Assembly (NCBI GenBank): GCA_947642445.1
Contig: CANRSF010000002.1
Coordinates: 62,001 to 126,000 of the forward strand
Length of the DNA stretch: 64,000 bases
DNA from: an uncultured Collinsella sp.
GTDB taxonomy: Bacteria > Actinomycetota > Coriobacteriia > Coriobacteriales > Coriobacteriaceae
Reading direction: 5' to 3'
Below the pieces are notes generated by a model. It was not told the origin of the DNA. It did no database searches and was given only the letters and a program-made list of their open reading frames with translations. Shown here piece by piece: positions 6,518 through 39,261 of this stretch. How positions within the stretch are numbered: the first letter of the stretch is position 1; each line of letters starts with the position of its first letter. A program made the translations under genes and the position numbers.

Positions 6518-7480
6518 TCACGATTTTCTCAAGATGTTCGTAATCCAGAGCAAAAGCGCGGTCTCGGAATCTGCCGAACCCTTGAGCGCGAGCTCCACAT
6601 CAACGGCACCCTCGAGCGCTGCGACGAGCTCGGTCATCGAAAAACGACGCGCCCAGGTAAGGTGATTCTTGACCTGCCAGGACTGGAGCTTGAGCGTTGC
6701 GGCCAGCTCGCGACCCTGCCCACGCGCGTCGAGCGCCTTGGCGACGATAAGCTCGCGAATGCGACCGCACAGCAATGTGTAAGTCCACACGTAGCTCTTG
6801 GAGGGCAGGAGCTTAAAGAGCTCGAGCGAACGCCGCATATCGCGAGCCGAGACGGCGTTGAGGAAGTCCCAGGGTTGGACCTCGGCCGTACGTACAATCC
6901 AGCGATCAACATCGGCAAGTTCAATCTGGGGCGACTCGACCATCTGGGCAAGCTTGGCCAAGTCGTTATCGAGCATGCGCGTGTTTTCGCCCGAACGCGA
7001 GACGAGCTCCTCGGCGGCCGCCGTCGAAATCGACTTACCGCGCTGCGTCGCCATCTGCTGAACACGGCGCGGCAGTTCCCAGCGCTTGGTACCCGAGCAA
7101 TCGACGATAGCCTTCTTGTCGATCTTGGCGATTGCCTTATACAGGCGCGTATTCTTGGCAAGTGAGTCAGCGATGATGAGGCAGACCGTTGTTGGGCTGG
7201 GACTCGCCAGATACCCAACGAGCGGCTCCGAGACCGCCTTGGCGAGCTTTGAGCAGCCATCGAGGATTACCAGACGAAACTCGCTGCCCATCGGAAAGGT
7301 GTTAAGCGATCCGATAATGGACTCGATATCGGGGTCCTTGGTCATGTCTCGCTCGTCGAGGTTGAACTCGACCATACCCGATTTTTCCAGACGCGCTTTC
7401 ATACGCGAGACGGCGTGGTCGCGCTTGACTCCGTCGGTACCGACGATCAGATATGCCGGCAGCAAACCGGTTTCGGACAT
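6518..7480 (-). CDS. holA: DNA polymerase III subunit delta
   Basis: Length, LIVGTDGVKRDHAVSRMK N-terminus and AAA+ delta-like sequence; follows comEC as in many bacteria. Confidence 0.85.
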   Translation of the reverse strand: MSETGLLPAYLIVGTDGVKRDHAVSRMKARLEKSGMVEFNLDERDMTKDPDIESIIGSLNTFPMGSEFRLVILDGCSKLAKAVSEPLVGYLASPSPTTVCLIIADSLAKNTRLYKAIAKIDKKAIVDCSGTKRWELPRRVQQMATQRGKSISTAAAEELVSRSGENTRMLDNDLAKLAQMVESPQIELADVDRWIVRTAEVQPWDFLNAVSARDMRRSLELFKLLPSKSYVWTYTLLCGRIRELIVAKALDARGQGRELAATLKLQSWQVKNHLTWARRFSMTELVAALEGAVDVELALKGSADSETALLLWITNILRKS

Positions 7481-7558
7481 TGCGCTCCCCTCCCGCAGGC
7501 CTTCGTATTCGTTCCGTGCCATTCTAGCCCAGGGGCCCACCACACGCCAACGACGTCG

Positions 7559-9874
7559 TCACGGTCGCTGGCATCGCATCGCAAAGCCATTCGCAGTCGG
7601 TGTGACGGTAATGTCGCCGTGTTCGATGGTACACGCGAACACACCACCCGCTTCCTTAACGGCATCGATGCAGGCATCGGACGGATGGCCGTATCGATTC
7701 CCCTCACCGGCGCTTGCGAGGGAAAGCTCGGGCTTCAGGACGTCCAGCAACTCGCCATCGACTGAAACCTTGGAGCCGTGATGCCCAAGTTTAAGGACAT
7801 CGATATCCCCCACCTCCTGCACGAATTCCCGCTCTTGGTCGAGCTCGGCATCACCGGTGAGAAGTATTCGCAGGCCCTTGCCTTCCTGAACATAAGAGAG
7901 CAGCAGGACAAGCGAGTCCTCATTTCCCTCGCCATCCACGAACTCGAATGGCCACATCACGCGAGCGCAAAATGAGCCGATGTCGACCGTATCCCCACGG
8001 CGCACCTGCCGATACTCCACGCCAGGTCGGTTCAATACCTCGGCAGGAGCATCCTCCAGCGCATCCGCCGCCACGGCAATCGTTCCGACCGAAAACTGTT
8101 CGAGCACGGCAGGCAAACCACCCCAGTGGTCCTCATCCCAATGCGTCACAAAGACGGCATCGATATGGTGCACGTTATTGCGAACCAACGCCGCAACCAC
8201 ACGCTCGTCGAGCCCGCAGTCGACGAGAGCTACTGCGCCGCCTTGGCGGATAAGAATCGCATCGGCCTGGCCCACATCGAGCACCGTCACCGAAGGCGGA
8301 GCGAATCGATCCCAATAGACGTACGGAATCGCAGCCAAGAGCATCAGGCATGCAAGCCCCACCGCCATAGGACGTGCACGGGGACGCGGCCACCAGACCA
8401 GCAGAACCGCCAGAAAACACGGCACTAGGTAAATCCACATGCTATCGGGCGGCACGCTCACGTATGCACCCGGCACGGCGGCAAACAGCTGCTCGAAGAA
8501 CAGCGCGCAACGGGCGGCAATCATGGGCACAACGAGCGCCCAAGTCCGCAACGGTCCCACGAGCGAAAAGGGAGCCAGCGCGATCGACACAGCGAGCAGA
8601 ACGCTCACCACCGGACCGATGACCGCATTTGCCAACGGAGCAATGAGCGAGAATGTACCGAAGGCAGGAATGGTAATGGGAAGTGTCGCCAGTTGCGAGC
8701 ACAGCGTGACGGAAAGCACGCTGGCAACGCCCGATGGCACACCTAGCTCACCCAACGCGTAGGTCGCATAGGGACAAAAACACAGAATGGCTAAGACGCT
8801 GGCGCATGAAAGCTGAAAGCCCATCTCGAACAGCACCGTCGGCCGCAGTAGCACAAAGATGGACATGGTTACGAAGAGTGCCGAAAGGCCGTGCCGACGA
8901 CGCCCCGCGCCGTTTACGACAAGCGTCACGAACACCATGCAGCACGCGCGCACGGCCGAGGGAGACGCGCCCGTAAAGGCAGCGTAGCCCACAAGCGTTA
9001 TCGCCAATATCGCCCGCTGAAGACCACGTGAGCACCGAGTCTTTTGCAATACACCCTCGATTACAAACCCCACGATAGCCAAATGGCTGCCCGAGACTGC
9101 GATAAGATGCGCCGTTCCCGTCACCGAAAACCAGTCGCCCGCCGGCTGGGCGCGCAGCTCGGCCGAACGACCGCAGACGACACCGGCTATGAGCGCACGC
9201 GCCGGGTCGGTCGCAGGCGCGATGGACGCAAGCAGCCCATTTCGCAGCCGAAGCAGCGGCCTCGGAGAACCCTCATCGACCGACACAATCCGAACGGCTT
9301 TGACCTTACGCACCTCGCCTCGGAGCACACGCGATCGTCCATACGCATCGTTCTCAAAACGTGAAACGCGACCGATAACACGCACGTGCGCCCCGACCTT
9401 GAGCTCACGATCACACGATAGGCGAACCGTTGCCAAGTTCTTACCGTCCGAGCGTGCCCCGCAGGTATAGGAATACACGTCGTCGTTTATGGATGGATCG
9501 CCCTGCACGACAAACTCGAGGCCGCTTGCCGCTCGACCGTCGAGTGCCTTCGAGGCGCTGAGCACACCCACAGCCCACCACGCCGAGACGACCGCTCCCG
9601 CCACGAGACCGGCGGACGCGGCATACAGCCACCGCTTCAAAGGGGCAAGCCGCGCACAAGAGTGAGCCAGCACAACGAAAACCGCTGCCGCAACGGGAAT
9701 GGCCCATAGCGGCCCGACCGCCGTCGCCCGCTCCCTCAGCAGCGCATCAGCGGCTATGCTGAGCACCAAGGCGCAGCTCACGCACATGCCGGCACACAGG
9801 GCCATCGTCCACGGAATCAGGGGTCGCGGAGGCATCACGTGCTCGCGCTCGGTCGCGCTCATACGCAGATGCAA
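7559..9874 (-). CDS. comEC: ComEC/Rec2 DNA uptake channel protein
   Basis: Competence domain (HLIAVSGSHLAIVG) and C-terminal metallo-beta-lactamase domain (VLDVGQADAILI, THWDEDHWGGL, LKLGHHGSK). Confidence 0.95.
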   Translation of the reverse strand: MHLRMSATEREHVMPPRPLIPWTMALCAGMCVSCALVLSIAADALLRERATAVGPLWAIPVAAAVFVVLAHSCARLAPLKRWLYAASAGLVAGAVVSAWWAVGVLSASKALDGRAASGLEFVVQGDPSINDDVYSYTCGARSDGKNLATVRLSCDRELKVGAHVRVIGRVSRFENDAYGRSRVLRGEVRKVKAVRIVSVDEGSPRPLLRLRNGLLASIAPATDPARALIAGVVCGRSAELRAQPAGDWFSVTGTAHLIAVSGSHLAIVGFVIEGVLQKTRCSRGLQRAILAITLVGYAAFTGASPSAVRACCMVFVTLVVNGAGRRRHGLSALFVTMSIFVLLRPTVLFEMGFQLSCASVLAILCFCPYATYALGELGVPSGVASVLSVTLCSQLATLPITIPAFGTFSLIAPLANAVIGPVVSVLLAVSIALAPFSLVGPLRTWALVVPMIAARCALFFEQLFAAVPGAYVSVPPDSMWIYLVPCFLAVLLVWWPRPRARPMAVGLACLMLLAAIPYVYWDRFAPPSVTVLDVGQADAILIRQGGAVALVDCGLDERVVAALVRNNVHHIDAVFVTHWDEDHWGGLPAVLEQFSVGTIAVAADALEDAPAEVLNRPGVEYRQVRRGDTVDIGSFCARVMWPFEFVDGEGNEDSLVLLLSYVQEGKGLRILLTGDAELDQEREFVQEVGDIDVLKLGHHGSKVSVDGELLDVLKPELSLASAGEGNRYGHPSDACIDAVKEAGGVFACTIEHGDITVTPTANGFAMRCQRP

Positions 9875-10572
9875 TCTTTGATTTTGGCAAGCTTCTTCTC
9901 GCCGATTCCCGACACACGCATCAGATCGTCAACCGAGGCGAAAGCACCGTTCTTTGTCCGCTCATCGATAATCGACTGGGCCATAGAGGGGCCGATGCCC
10001 GAAAGCGTCTGCAGCTCTTCTGCGCTTGCCGTATTGATGTTTACTAGGCCTGTTGCGCCACTAACGCCCGACGATGCGGAAGTCCCACCATCAACACCGG
10101 CTTCCGCAATGGACGCCTGCTGCTCCCCTACCGTTGGAACGTGAATTTTTTGTCCATCAGTGACCTTGGATGCACGATTAAGCCCCGTAACGTCTGCTTC
10201 GGGCGCCAGCCCGCCGGCGGCATCAATCGCCTGAGCCACCCGCGCCCCGTCTTTGAGGCGATATACACCGGGTGACACCACGGCGCCATCAACATCGACA
10301 TAGACCTCTGCCGCGGCAGACGCCTTAGGCGAAGAGCCTTCGGATGTCTTTCCGCTCGAAGCATCGCCGGATCCCGGCTCCACTAACGTGCCCGAACCAT
10401 CAGTGCGCTCAAACGACACACCGCCGGCACCGCCGCCAAGGTTCGCCATCGCCAGCCCACTCGCCATCGCAATGACGACCAGTATCGCCATCACCACTGC
10501 CTTATGACCGAGCAGTTTGCCCGCCCAGCGGTCCATCTTTTTGACTCGTTCGTGTTGTTCGCGCTGCGCCAT
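9859..10572 (-). CDS. comEA: ComEA family helix-hairpin-helix DNA-binding competence protein
   Basis: N-terminal TM, SLBB-like region (VYVDVDGAVVSPGVYRL) and C-terminal HhH (VNINTASAEELQTLSGIGPSMAQSIIDERTKNGAF). MAQREQ start at 10572 preferred. Confidence 0.93.
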   Translation of the reverse strand: MAQREQHERVKKMDRWAGKLLGHKAVVMAILVVIAMASGLAMANLGGGAGGVSFERTDGSGTLVEPGSGDASSGKTSEGSSPKASAAAEVYVDVDGAVVSPGVYRLKDGARVAQAIDAAGGLAPEADVTGLNRASKVTDGQKIHVPTVGEQQASIAEAGVDGGTSASSGVSGATGLVNINTASAEELQTLSGIGPSMAQSIIDERTKNGAFASVDDLMRVSGIGEKKLAKIKDCICV

Positions 10573-10629: not shown

Positions 10630-10641
10630 AAAACCGGTTTT
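10630..10641. promoter_or_regulatory. 12-bp palindrome AAAACCGGTTTT in comEA upstream region
   Basis: Direct reading; perfect palindrome between the 21-bp motif and the comEA start. Confidence 0.4.
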
Positions 10642-10647
10642 TGCGGT

Positions 10648-10668
10648 CAAACCAAAAACCGACCAAAA
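10648..10668 (-). promoter_or_regulatory. Candidate competence-operon motif copy 1
   Basis: Plus CAAACCAAAAACCGACCAAAA (minus TTTTGGTCGGTTTTTGGTTTG); 18/21 identical to 39229-39249; 76 bp upstream of comEA ATG. Confidence 0.6.
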
Positions 10669-10746
10669 CCTTGCACAAATCTGTCCATTTATTCAGGCAC
10701 ACGTCAGCAAATGAACGCTTAGCCGCAAAATGCCCAGATAGCAAAA

Positions 10747-36216: not shown

Positions 36217-37152
36217 CTAATTGACACGTTTTCCATTGTGACCGAAGGGCGTCTGGGCGTGAAGGGCAAACTTGGAGGGCGCATACCTTCCATCCATCAT
36301 GCGCTCGATAAGGCCCTCGAGTTCAAGCGAACCCAAGAGTTTGAGTACGCCGACAGCATCGAGCGAGACGAGCGCCGCGATGTCGTCGACCTTGAGCGGA
36401 GAGGCGATGAGCGCATGCATCACGGTCTGCTGTGTTTGATCCAGGTCGGCAATGCCGGGAGCATCGGGGCGCGAGTAGCGCAGAGTGCCGTAGATGCGTG
36501 AGATAGCCATCTCGATAGATTCCTCGTCGATGATGCAGCAGGCACCGTTCGCAATGAGGTAATTCGTGCCACGCGACTCGGGCGATAGGATCGACCCCGG
36601 CACAGCGAGAAGTTCTCGCCCCAAATCCATAGCAGCCTCGGCTGTAGAAAACGTCCCGGAAGGCATACCCGCCTCGGATACAAAGAGGGCTTGCGACAGG
36701 GCCGCGATCACGCGATTGCGGCGCGGAAAGGCAAACTTGCGCGGACCCATGCCCCACGGGGAGATCGACACGACCGCGCCACCCGTATCGAGCGTGCGCA
36801 TAATAAGCCCCGCGCTCGAGCGCGGATAGACCACGTCGGCGCCCGTCCCCAGCACCACGACGTGTTTGCCGCCAGCGTTGACCGCAGCCCAACCCGAGGC
36901 CTGGTCACAACCGACCGCGCCGCCCGAAACTACCGTCACTCCCGCCTCGACCGCCACCTTTGCCGCAAGCTCTGCCACGGCAAGACCATACGGCGAGGCC
37001 TTGCGCGCGCCGATGATGGAGAGCGCGGGCGTCGAAAGCACCTCGGGGTTGCCGCGCACATAGAGCGTCTGGGGTACATCAGAAAGCTCCAAAACGGTCT
37101 CGGGATACAACGCATCACCTGGATGCAGCTCGTAGGTCCCCTCGGCCATCAT
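36217..37152 (-). CDS. dprA: DNA processing protein DprA
   Basis: SIIGARKASPYGLAVAELAAKVAVEAGVTVVSGGAVGCDQASGWAAV, FPRRNRVIAALS, C-terminal winged-helix-like region. Confidence 0.94.
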   Translation of the reverse strand: MMAEGTYELHPGDALYPETVLELSDVPQTLYVRGNPEVLSTPALSIIGARKASPYGLAVAELAAKVAVEAGVTVVSGGAVGCDQASGWAAVNAGGKHVVVLGTGADVVYPRSSAGLIMRTLDTGGAVVSISPWGMGPRKFAFPRRNRVIAALSQALFVSEAGMPSGTFSTAEAAMDLGRELLAVPGSILSPESRGTNYLIANGACCIIDEESIEMAISRIYGTLRYSRPDAPGIADLDQTQQTVMHALIASPLKVDDIAALVSLDAVGVLKLLGSLELEGLIERMMDGRYAPSKFALHAQTPFGHNGKRVN

Positions 37153-38672
37153 TGGTCCCTCCTTCCCTGGTACATCGCCGCCTCGAGCACGTGGTCCTGC
37201 GTCACTTGCTCGCCCTCGGCGACGTCGGCGATTGTACGCGCGATACGCACCAGTCGCACGATGCCGCGACCCGTGAGATGTGTGCGCTTCGACAGGCCGA
37301 GCACACACTTCTCTGCCGCATCATCGAGCTCAAAGGTCGAAACGACGCCGTCAATGGACCGTGTCTCGTCATCCTCGGCCTCGGCATCCGCATCGTCCAT
37401 ACGGGATTCGCGCCAAGCGCGAAAAGCGCGACCGCGCACAACGTAGTCACGTAACTCGGCAGACGACATACCCTCCGCACCCTCGATAATCACTTGGGGG
37501 TCGGGACGGGTCACATCGATCATCATGTCGATACGGTCGGCCAAAGGACCGCGCAGCTTTGCCCGATAGCGCTCCACCATCGATGCCGAGCAGCGGCATG
37601 CCACCTCGCGATCGCCCAAAAAGCCGCAGGGGCAGGGATTGCTCGCGGCCAGCAGCTGAAAGCGCGACGGGAAGGTAAAGGCCCCGTCGACGCGTACGAT
37701 CCTCACATAGCCGCGTTCGATGGGCTGACGCAGCGTCTGCAGCACACCCGTGGGAAACTCGGCAAGCTCGTCCAAAAAGAGCACGCCGCCATGAGCAAGG
37801 CTGATCTCACCCGGGTGCACCGGGCGCCCACCGCCGATAAGACCTGCGGTCGAAATACTGTGATGGGGACTGCGGAAGGGCCGGTGCCCTGCCAACAAGC
37901 CATCAATGTTCTCACCCAAAACCGAATGGATGCACAGCGCCTCCTGTTGATCCTCAACGGAAAGCTCGGGCAGGATGCCGGTCATACGACGCGCGAGCAT
38001 CGTCTTGCCCGATCCCGGGGACCCGATCATGAGCAAGCCGAGTTCTCCTGCCGCCGCAAGCGCCATGCCGCGCTTGGCGACCTCCTGCCCCAGTACGTCG
38101 GCATAGTCGAGCTCGGGCTCAAAGGTCGCCTCGAGCACTTCAGAATCCAAGTAGTGCCGCGCGGCATCGCCCATGCCATGGGCAAGCTGAGACAAATGAT
38201 CGATGAATCCACAATCCACGCCCGCGAGTGGCACATGCTGGTCTGACCTGCCGGCGATAAAAGACAGCCCCATGTCGCGAGCCAGCAGCTGAAACGCCAC
38301 CTCGCCCTTGACGGGAAGCACCGTACCGTCCAAGCCGAGCTCGCCGGCGATAAGGCAGCGATCGAGGTTGTCACGGGGAATCTGCCCATCGGCCGCCAGA
38401 ACCGCGATGGCGATGGGCAGATCAAAGCCGCTACCGGTCTTGCGAATATCGCCGGGCGCTAGGTTGACCGTAATGCCCGAGCGCGGGATCTCGAACCCGG
38501 CGGAGCGCATCGCGCAGCGAATACGACCGCGTGACTCCATCACCTCCATACTCGGAATGCCGAGCATCTGGATGCCCGGAACACCACCGGCAAGCGAGAC
38601 CTCGACCGTGACGTGAATCGCCTCGACGCCACGGATGCAGGCCGCGTGAACGGCAAACGTCTCGAACGCCAT
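37149..38672 (-). CDS. comM: YifB/ComM family Mg chelatase-like AAA ATPase
   Basis: VSLAGGVPGIQMLGIP, MIGSPGSGKTMLARRMTGILP, FRSPHHSISTAGLIGGG, HGGVLFLDELAEF. Confidence 0.95.
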   Translation of the reverse strand: MAFETFAVHAACIRGVEAIHVTVEVSLAGGVPGIQMLGIPSMEVMESRGRIRCAMRSAGFEIPRSGITVNLAPGDIRKTGSGFDLPIAIAVLAADGQIPRDNLDRCLIAGELGLDGTVLPVKGEVAFQLLARDMGLSFIAGRSDQHVPLAGVDCGFIDHLSQLAHGMGDAARHYLDSEVLEATFEPELDYADVLGQEVAKRGMALAAAGELGLLMIGSPGSGKTMLARRMTGILPELSVEDQQEALCIHSVLGENIDGLLAGHRPFRSPHHSISTAGLIGGGRPVHPGEISLAHGGVLFLDELAEFPTGVLQTLRQPIERGYVRIVRVDGAFTFPSRFQLLAASNPCPCGFLGDREVACRCSASMVERYRAKLRGPLADRIDMMIDVTRPDPQVIIEGAEGMSSAELRDYVVRGRAFRAWRESRMDDADAEAEDDETRSIDGVVSTFELDDAAEKCVLGLSKRTHLTGRGIVRLVRIARTIADVAEGEQVTQDHVLEAAMYQGRRDQ

Positions 38673-39157
38673 CACGACACCTGCCAATCGAACGCGTTGT
38701 ACTGGTGCTCGATCTCGGCGATATGCCCGCCGCGAATGGTGACACCCACGGCATCGAAGCGAATCGCCTTGAGCGGATAATGCTCCATGAGATAGCAACT
38801 TGCGATGCGGCGGTAGCGGCGTTGCTTTTGGGCGTCCACGGCCTCCTCGGGAAAGACCCGCGTGCTGCAATTCAGTGCAACGCGTCTGGTCTTGACCTCG
38901 GCCATCACCACGACATCGTCGAGCTCATCGAGCAGCACCAGATCGGCCTCGCCCTCGGTGCAACGATAACCCTGCTCCAGCAAGGTGTAGCCGCGCTCGT
39001 TAAAGTAGTCGATGGTGATCAGCTCGCCCAGCATGCCCAGCTCGCGGGGACTGAGTCCCTTGATAAACTCGGGCGTCATCGCCCCGCAGTCGAGCTCGCC
39101 GTTTTCCCAACGCTCCTTGAGCTGCTGCGTCTTGCTCTTTTTGCTTGCGGCACTCAT
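38672..39157 (-). CDS. yraN: YraN (UPF0102) family protein
   Basis: LGELITIDYFNERGYTLLEQGYRCTEGEADLVLLDELDDVVVMAEVKTR endonuclease-like fold motif; next to comM. Confidence 0.88.
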   Translation of the reverse strand: MSAASKKSKTQQLKERWENGELDCGAMTPEFIKGLSPRELGMLGELITIDYFNERGYTLLEQGYRCTEGEADLVLLDELDDVVVMAEVKTRRVALNCSTRVFPEEAVDAQKQRRYRRIASCYLMEHYPLKAIRFDAVGVTIRGGHIAEIEHQYNAFDWQVS

Positions 39158-39228
39158 GGGGTCTCCTTTCCCGCACGCTGCATTGCCCCGATGATGAGGG
39201 CACCTTTCATGCGGGTAAGTACCGGAAG

Positions 39229-39249
39229 CAAACCAAAAGCTGACCAAAT
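39229..39249 (-). promoter_or_regulatory. Candidate competence-operon motif copy 2
   Basis: Plus CAAACCAAAAGCTGACCAAAT (minus ATTTGGTCAGCTTTTGGTTTG), 72 bp upstream of yraN ATG. Confidence 0.6.
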
Positions 39250-39261
39250 GCCGTCAAAAAA

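Follow-up and report, generated by a model that had tools for sequence, protein, structure and literature searches.

Members of the SARP family switch on antibiotic genes in Streptomyces, and direct repeats of 11 bp are established as binding sites of the OmpR family. In Bacillus subtilis, the targets of ComK include the comE genes, dprA, recA, ssb and pilus genes. The direct repeats recognised by SARPs have a spacing of 11 or 22 bp, the 3' repeat lies at 8 bp from the -10 element and, in the case of AfsR, sigma region 4 is held by the regulator in place of its -35 contact (PMC10936776). PimR, a SARP-LAL protein, binds CGGCAAG heptamers with 4-bp spacers (PMC5930380). In Micrococcus luteus, an actinobacterial model, Flp-pilus biogenesis is reported to be tied to transformation (PMC4322843), and the competence regulatory cascade is still described as unidentified (PMC12849477).

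The operator described here, from a genome of the Collinsella aerofaciens group, has features of several of these systems. Like the Streptomyces SARP operators (the afs box of AfsR and the sites of PimR), it is made of 11-bp direct repeats oriented to the gene; a weak -10 may likewise stand about 8 bp beyond its last unit, and the PimR heptamer resembles the GTCAAGC, GGCAAGC and GCAAGG units found here. The Streptomyces operators, however, serve antibiotic genes and usually hold two or three units, whereas the genes here belong to DNA uptake and recombination and, in the genome G075, which is from another family, an array can comprise up to about 10 units. The list of targets is similar to that of the ComK regulon, but ComK boxes read AAAA-N5-TTTT in place of 11-bp direct repeats, and our candidate regulator has SARP rather than ComK domains. 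PhoB/OmpR-type boxes have in common with this operator the 11-bp direct repeats and, on the protein side, the OmpR-type winged helix; their regulators possess a receiver domain, which the candidate does not. M. luteus is likewise an actinobacterium whose competence involves comEA/comEC together with a Flp/tad pilus (PMC4322843), although, unlike here, no operator or SARP is described in the abstracts consulted. Searches of the literature returned nothing linking SARPs to competence, no description of competence control in Coriobacteriia and no natural transformation of Collinsella.

Two operators in the window and the genes behind them

Two sites in the window (the whole stretch of 64,000 nucleotides that was analysed), CAAACCAAAAACCGACCAAAA at 10648-10668 and CAAACCAAAAGCTGACCAAAT at 39229-39249, are identical at 18 of 21 positions, and the first reads TTTTGGT twice on the coding strand, with starts 11 bp apart. 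Both points had been made in the preliminary description and are confirmed in the sequence, as is the placement of the first site upstream of comEA; the distance to the ATG at 10572, given there as 76 bp, is in fact 75 intervening bases. The two half-sites of that description also stand, but the array is longer. A third unit lies one turn upstream (GCAAGG at comEA, GTCAAGC or similar at most other copies), and most copies run from a GCAAGG or GTCAAGC unit through TTTGGTCAGCw to TTTGGTTnG with an 11-bp period, giving the extended consensus GTCAAGC-wTTTGGTCAGCw-TTTGGTTnG. A sequence-only model, R1, was built from nine sites of the genome including the window's two copies. The features are as follows.

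10648..10676, minus strand: operator copy 1, array GCAAGG / TTTTGGTCGGT / TTTTGGTTTG, upstream of comEA (R1 E=3.8e-6; 0.00 expected; present in 18/18 related loci)
10637..10642 (approximate), minus strand: possible weak -10, AAAAAC (relatives have TAAAAC, GAAAAC or GATAAC), placed 8 bp beyond the final TTTTGGT, read from the sequence and conserved in the comEA alignment
9859..10572, minus strand: comEA, SLBB and helix-hairpin-helix DNA-binding protein (Pfam HHH_3 1e-22, SLBB 1.5e-11; ATG and ribosome-binding site conserved)
7559..9874, minus strand: comEC, DNA channel with Competence and metallo-beta-lactamase domains (Pfam Competence 5.9e-45)
6518..7543, minus strand: holA, DNA polymerase III delta, third gene of the comEA operon (from the open reading frame list; name taken from the preliminary description)
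39229..39255, minus strand: operator copy 2, 11-bp array upstream of yraN-comM-dprA (R1 E=1.7e-6; orthologous sites at the same position in G002 and G026)
38672..39157, minus strand: yraN, UPF0102 nuclease-like protein, first gene after copy 2, with its start at 39157 (Pfam UPF0102 3.6e-18)
37149..38672, minus strand: comM, Mg-chelatase-like helicase (Pfam Mg_chelatase 5.5e-79)
36217..37308, minus strand: dprA (Pfam DNA_processg_A 8.6e-57, DprA_WH 5e-9)

A pattern search allowing up to three mismatches returns only these two matches in the 64 kb, the same two that had been found by hand. That the window holds two copies only might suggest the chance similarity of two AT-rich stretches, but this reading is already refuted: shuffles give an expectation of 0.00, the whole genome gives 10 matches against 0, and R1 has exactly 20 specific matches in 212 kb, namely the window's two and, for every one of 18 related loci, a single match at comEA.

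Across the C. aerofaciens sites, what stands 8 bp after the last TTTGGT-type unit is heterogeneous, mostly AAAAAC/TAAAAC/GAAAAC, GGTACT or GCATGA, which counts against the SARP reading set out below. Such hexamers would be poor -10 elements, and activation is the predicted mode of control. A block, CCGGTACTTACCCGCATGA, follows the operator in the same phase at yraN (window about 39210-39230, minus strand), at a surface-protein gene and at nuclease-like genes, and is possibly a core promoter. On reading the comEA site, the consensus of neither the ComK box (AAAA-N5-TTTT) nor the CIN box (TACGAATA) was found, and the LexA box CGAAC-N4-GTTCG is absent from the operator site. Rfam returned only tRNAs at these loci. 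The heptamer ACCTGCG, frequent upstream of recA and comEA, proved to be nothing special, with 23 copies in the window.

The regulon in the genome and in the genus

The genome-wide search for further matches that the preliminary description had proposed turned out in its favour. In the 2.02-Mb genome, the pattern has 10 matches against 0 for the reversed control, and the genes downstream are comEA, yraN-comM-dprA, recA, rpsF-ssb-rpsR-rplI, the tad-pilus gene cpaB (Pfam RcpC), two genes for nuclease-like proteins and one for a 235-aa protein; the several tandem units upstream of recA are counted as two of the 10. With R1, 11 sites have E<0.01, and every one of them points at a gene close by, among them comEA, yraN-comM-dprA, recA, rpsF-ssb-rpsR, cpaB and nuclease-like genes; weaker sites precede, among others, the genes of a RAYT-like transposase, a WYL-like protein and a surface protein. 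Two matches inside genes were set aside as coding-sequence coincidences, one of the pattern search in sufB, which looks like chance, and one in an adenine-deaminase-like gene. A single type of site is thus shared by comEA/comEC, dprA, ssb, recA and pilus genes, and we regard the existence of this site and of its regulon as close to certain. The inclusion of cpaB fits the reported tie between Flp-pilus biogenesis and transformation in M. luteus (PMC4322843).

The set could also be read as a DNA-damage regulon instead of a competence regulon, with recA, ssb, dprA and comM responding to damage. Two members, recA and ssb, speak for this, as does the LexA-type box in the recA promoter of this genome and of its relatives. 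The box, however, is a separate element lying downstream of the array, which makes the array at recA a second, upstream control; moreover, no SOS role is known for the uptake genes comEA-comEC or the pilus genes cpaB-tad, which recur in two families. We consider a damage regulon improbable. Almost every Collinsella examined has the LexA-type box itself (CGAAC-N4-GTTCG) in its recA promoter.

The weak site upstream of the WYL-like gene, conserved in three genomes, is of interest for another reason, since a PafBC-like WYL-domain protein could itself be the regulator and PafBC uses sigma adaptation like SARPs (PMC10936776). The Pfam WYL score of this protein is nevertheless below threshold and the site before its gene is weak, and the idea appears very unlikely to be right. 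The weak operators before the WYL-like gene and one nuclease-like gene are flanked by an inverted repeat, TTTTCAACAGC...GCTGTTGAAAA. The RAYT-like gene (Y1 transposase plus HTH) likewise has a conserved weak operator copy, seen at three loci, and the 235-aa protein, which has no Pfam or NCBIfam match, stands consistently behind a good copy in the C. aerofaciens clade (five loci). A multi-copy AbiEi/DUF559-like family has the operator in two families of bacteria, at six loci in the C. aerofaciens clade and six in G075 and G091. Its Pfam matches are weak or absent; the proteins are probably PD-(D/E)XK nuclease-like and perhaps act on incoming DNA.

Within Collinsella, the comEA array is kept in all 18 loci with a full upstream region, and mean column identity there is 0.955 in the site vs 0.75-0.93 in flanking segments. 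A scan of 45 congeneric genomes found 6-14 sites in each of 24 and none in the other 21, and G002 and G026 have sites orthologous to those of the window's genome. In 20 Collinsella genomes examined that do not have the exact motif, comEC, recA and comM are still present, and in many cases the recA and yraN of one genome have an 11-bp repeat of another sequence in common, for example GAGTTTTGnAT-GAGTTTCAmGC in G027 and CGTTCGGATTC-CG(G/T)TCGG in G038. Simple 11-bp self-similarity is weak for recA and yraN in these other Collinsella, so that the evidence there is a test on the core GTYNG. In 60 regions before recA, yraN and comEA of the 20 genomes, with the LexA part of the recA regions removed beforehand, this core recurs at 11, 22 and 33 bp 15, 9 and 18 times, against an average of 1.6 in shuffles, which never reached these counts in 300 trials but ignore the relatedness of the genomes. 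At other spacings the mean count is 1.9 and the highest 5; on the opposite strand the counts at 11, 22 and 33 bp are 2, 0 and 0. Since the core was picked by eye from four variants after the data had been viewed, it is the 11-bp spacing, predicted beforehand, that is really tested.

Arrays in other genera and families of the order

The preliminary description had also called for a test of conservation in sister species and in related Coriobacteriia; the first is seen, but identical sequence is not kept beyond the clade. Outside the C. aerofaciens clade, the exact motif is at background, with 10 matches in 9 of about 100 genomes vs 6 for the reversed control. The failure of exact conservation, which by itself comes close to a refutation, can be ascribed to drift of the sequence while the spacing stays. 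In 20 genomes outside Collinsella, a motif-free measure of self-similarity upstream of comEA peaks at 11 bp (12.2/20 vs a null of 9.85, sd 0.26), with a second peak at 22 bp, and seven of the 20 reach at least 14, where 0.2 would be expected. The comEA repeat unit differs by lineage: GGTTAGAAAAC in G090, four copies of TTTGGAnnnnn in G047, CGCGGAAGGTn in G058, GCTGGATTCGC in G075 and TCGTTCAACTT in G094.

The genome G075 is of particular value here. A search with its own unit locates about 18 arrays, the longest with about 10 units, against 0 in the reversed control, and arrays of about 7-10 units stand before the same five core operons as in the Collinsella genome: comEA-comEC, yraN-comM, recA-recX, rpsF-ssb-rpsR and cpaB-tadZ (gene names except ComEC were read from translations). 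Further arrays lie upstream of nuclease-like genes, of the gene for a surface protein and of several toxin-antitoxin pairs. The strongest result of this study, shown by sequence, is that two families have the same five core operons behind arrays whose repeat units differ; for ssb and cpaB, the check covered the C. aerofaciens clade and G075. This recurrence indicates that the repeat unit drifts, whereas the regulon and its 11-bp architecture persist. The preliminary description's proposal of a shared competence control site is strongly supported by the genome-wide hits, by their conservation in sister species and by the recurrence of the same regulon behind different 11-bp repeats in another family.

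The toxin-antitoxin pairs directly behind arrays in G075, named by reading, are RelE/HigA-like, AbiEi-AbiEii-like and BrnT-like (six loci). The same genome has an unrelated dispersed 20-bp repeat, GCTGGCGCCGCGCGGGATCC, in about 20 copies or more (e.g. at 195423, 256665 and 279765 of contig C1).

A candidate regulator

The OmpR/PhoB-type response regulator suggested in the preliminary description would account for 11-bp direct repeats, and its DNA-binding domain is retained in our best candidate; the response-regulator part is not. The genome encodes ten proteins with PF00486, nine of them response regulators and one a 999-aa SARP. The N-terminal part of this protein contains a P-loop region, and its C-terminal part combines a winged helix with a BTAD domain (Pfam 2.7e-8, 34.8 bits vs a cut-off of 22.1); Trans_reg_C at residues 766-824 scored 26.2 bits, at the cut-off, in one search and 22.6 bits in another. 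It has no receiver domain. A SARP module joined to a large NTPase part is also the plan of AfsR and the SARP-LAL protein PimR, with the differences that here the SARP module is C-terminal and the NTPase N-terminal, and that the target set is competence. The protein was present in single copy in 32/32 genomes of the order tested, with an identity to that of our genome of 33-42% within the family, 98% in G002 and 22-32% elsewhere (mainly in the C-terminal part), and its winged helix aligns across the order. NCBIfam gave no name for it or for three other products, and a single-sequence search of the PDB found no relative of the SARP module.

The promoter of the SARP gene provides a link to the operator. 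The region before this gene was compared in 14 genomes of the family, and there the array core, lying on the reverse strand, occurs 17 times at 11/22/33 bp vs 1.3 in shuffles (0/400), which here too ignore shared descent, and 8 times vs 1.2 when G090 is left out. The unit there is the same as the comEA unit of the same genome in G090 (GGTCAGA/GGTTAGA), in G042 and G043 (TGTCGG) and, in another family, in G071 (GTCAG). No convincing array was seen in the SARP upstream regions of the window's clade, G075 and G091. The inverted arrays suggest autoregulation. The operator and regulon could also stand with a different reader, one of the nine OmpR/PhoB-type response regulators, since that family too binds 11-bp direct repeats; one of the nine, an orphan GlnR-like protein, lies beside glnA and has no kinase neighbour. 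No link of the nine to the operator was seen, however, and at least four genomes have operator arrays in front of their SARP gene; together with the resemblance of the units to the SARP heptamer, this makes such a reader unlikely. We infer that the regulator reading the site is quite likely the STAND-NTPase/SARP protein and not a classical response regulator, the operators here having direct repeats at 11 or 22 bp as SARP operators do.

Taken as a whole, the data are probably best explained by a Coriobacteriales-wide competence (DNA-uptake) operator read by a STAND-SARP activator. The SARP module (OmpR-type winged helix plus BTAD) would bind the units side by side, one monomer per helical turn, and may activate promoters whose -35 is poor and whose weak -10 would lie about 8 bp beyond the final unit, in the manner of AfsR in Streptomyces, while the N-terminal STAND-type NTPase part could sense the inducing signal. 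On balance, we also lean towards competence being run across the order by one fast-evolving STAND-SARP, with an operator sequence that changes by lineage and a constant regulon of uptake, recombination, tad pilus and nuclease-like genes, joined in some lineages by toxin-antitoxin pairs. The analysis proposes an operator together with its targets and names a candidate regulator, in bacteria that are abundant in the human gut but difficult to handle by genetics; with these in hand, the induction of transformation becomes directly testable.

The recognition helices of the SARP proteins, compared by eye, fall into three groups that go with the repeat units. Those with GGTYAG units read RNNLYSTISRLR in our genome and RNSLYSTLSVLR in G090; RESLYVTLSSLR-like helices occur with GTCGG/GTTCGG units in G038, G042, G022, G043 and G016, and RKNFYSIWSMLR-like helices with GCTKGAT units in G075 and G091. 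Operator and recognition helix thus appear to drift together, and the system offers a clear example of how a regulon is retained between families.
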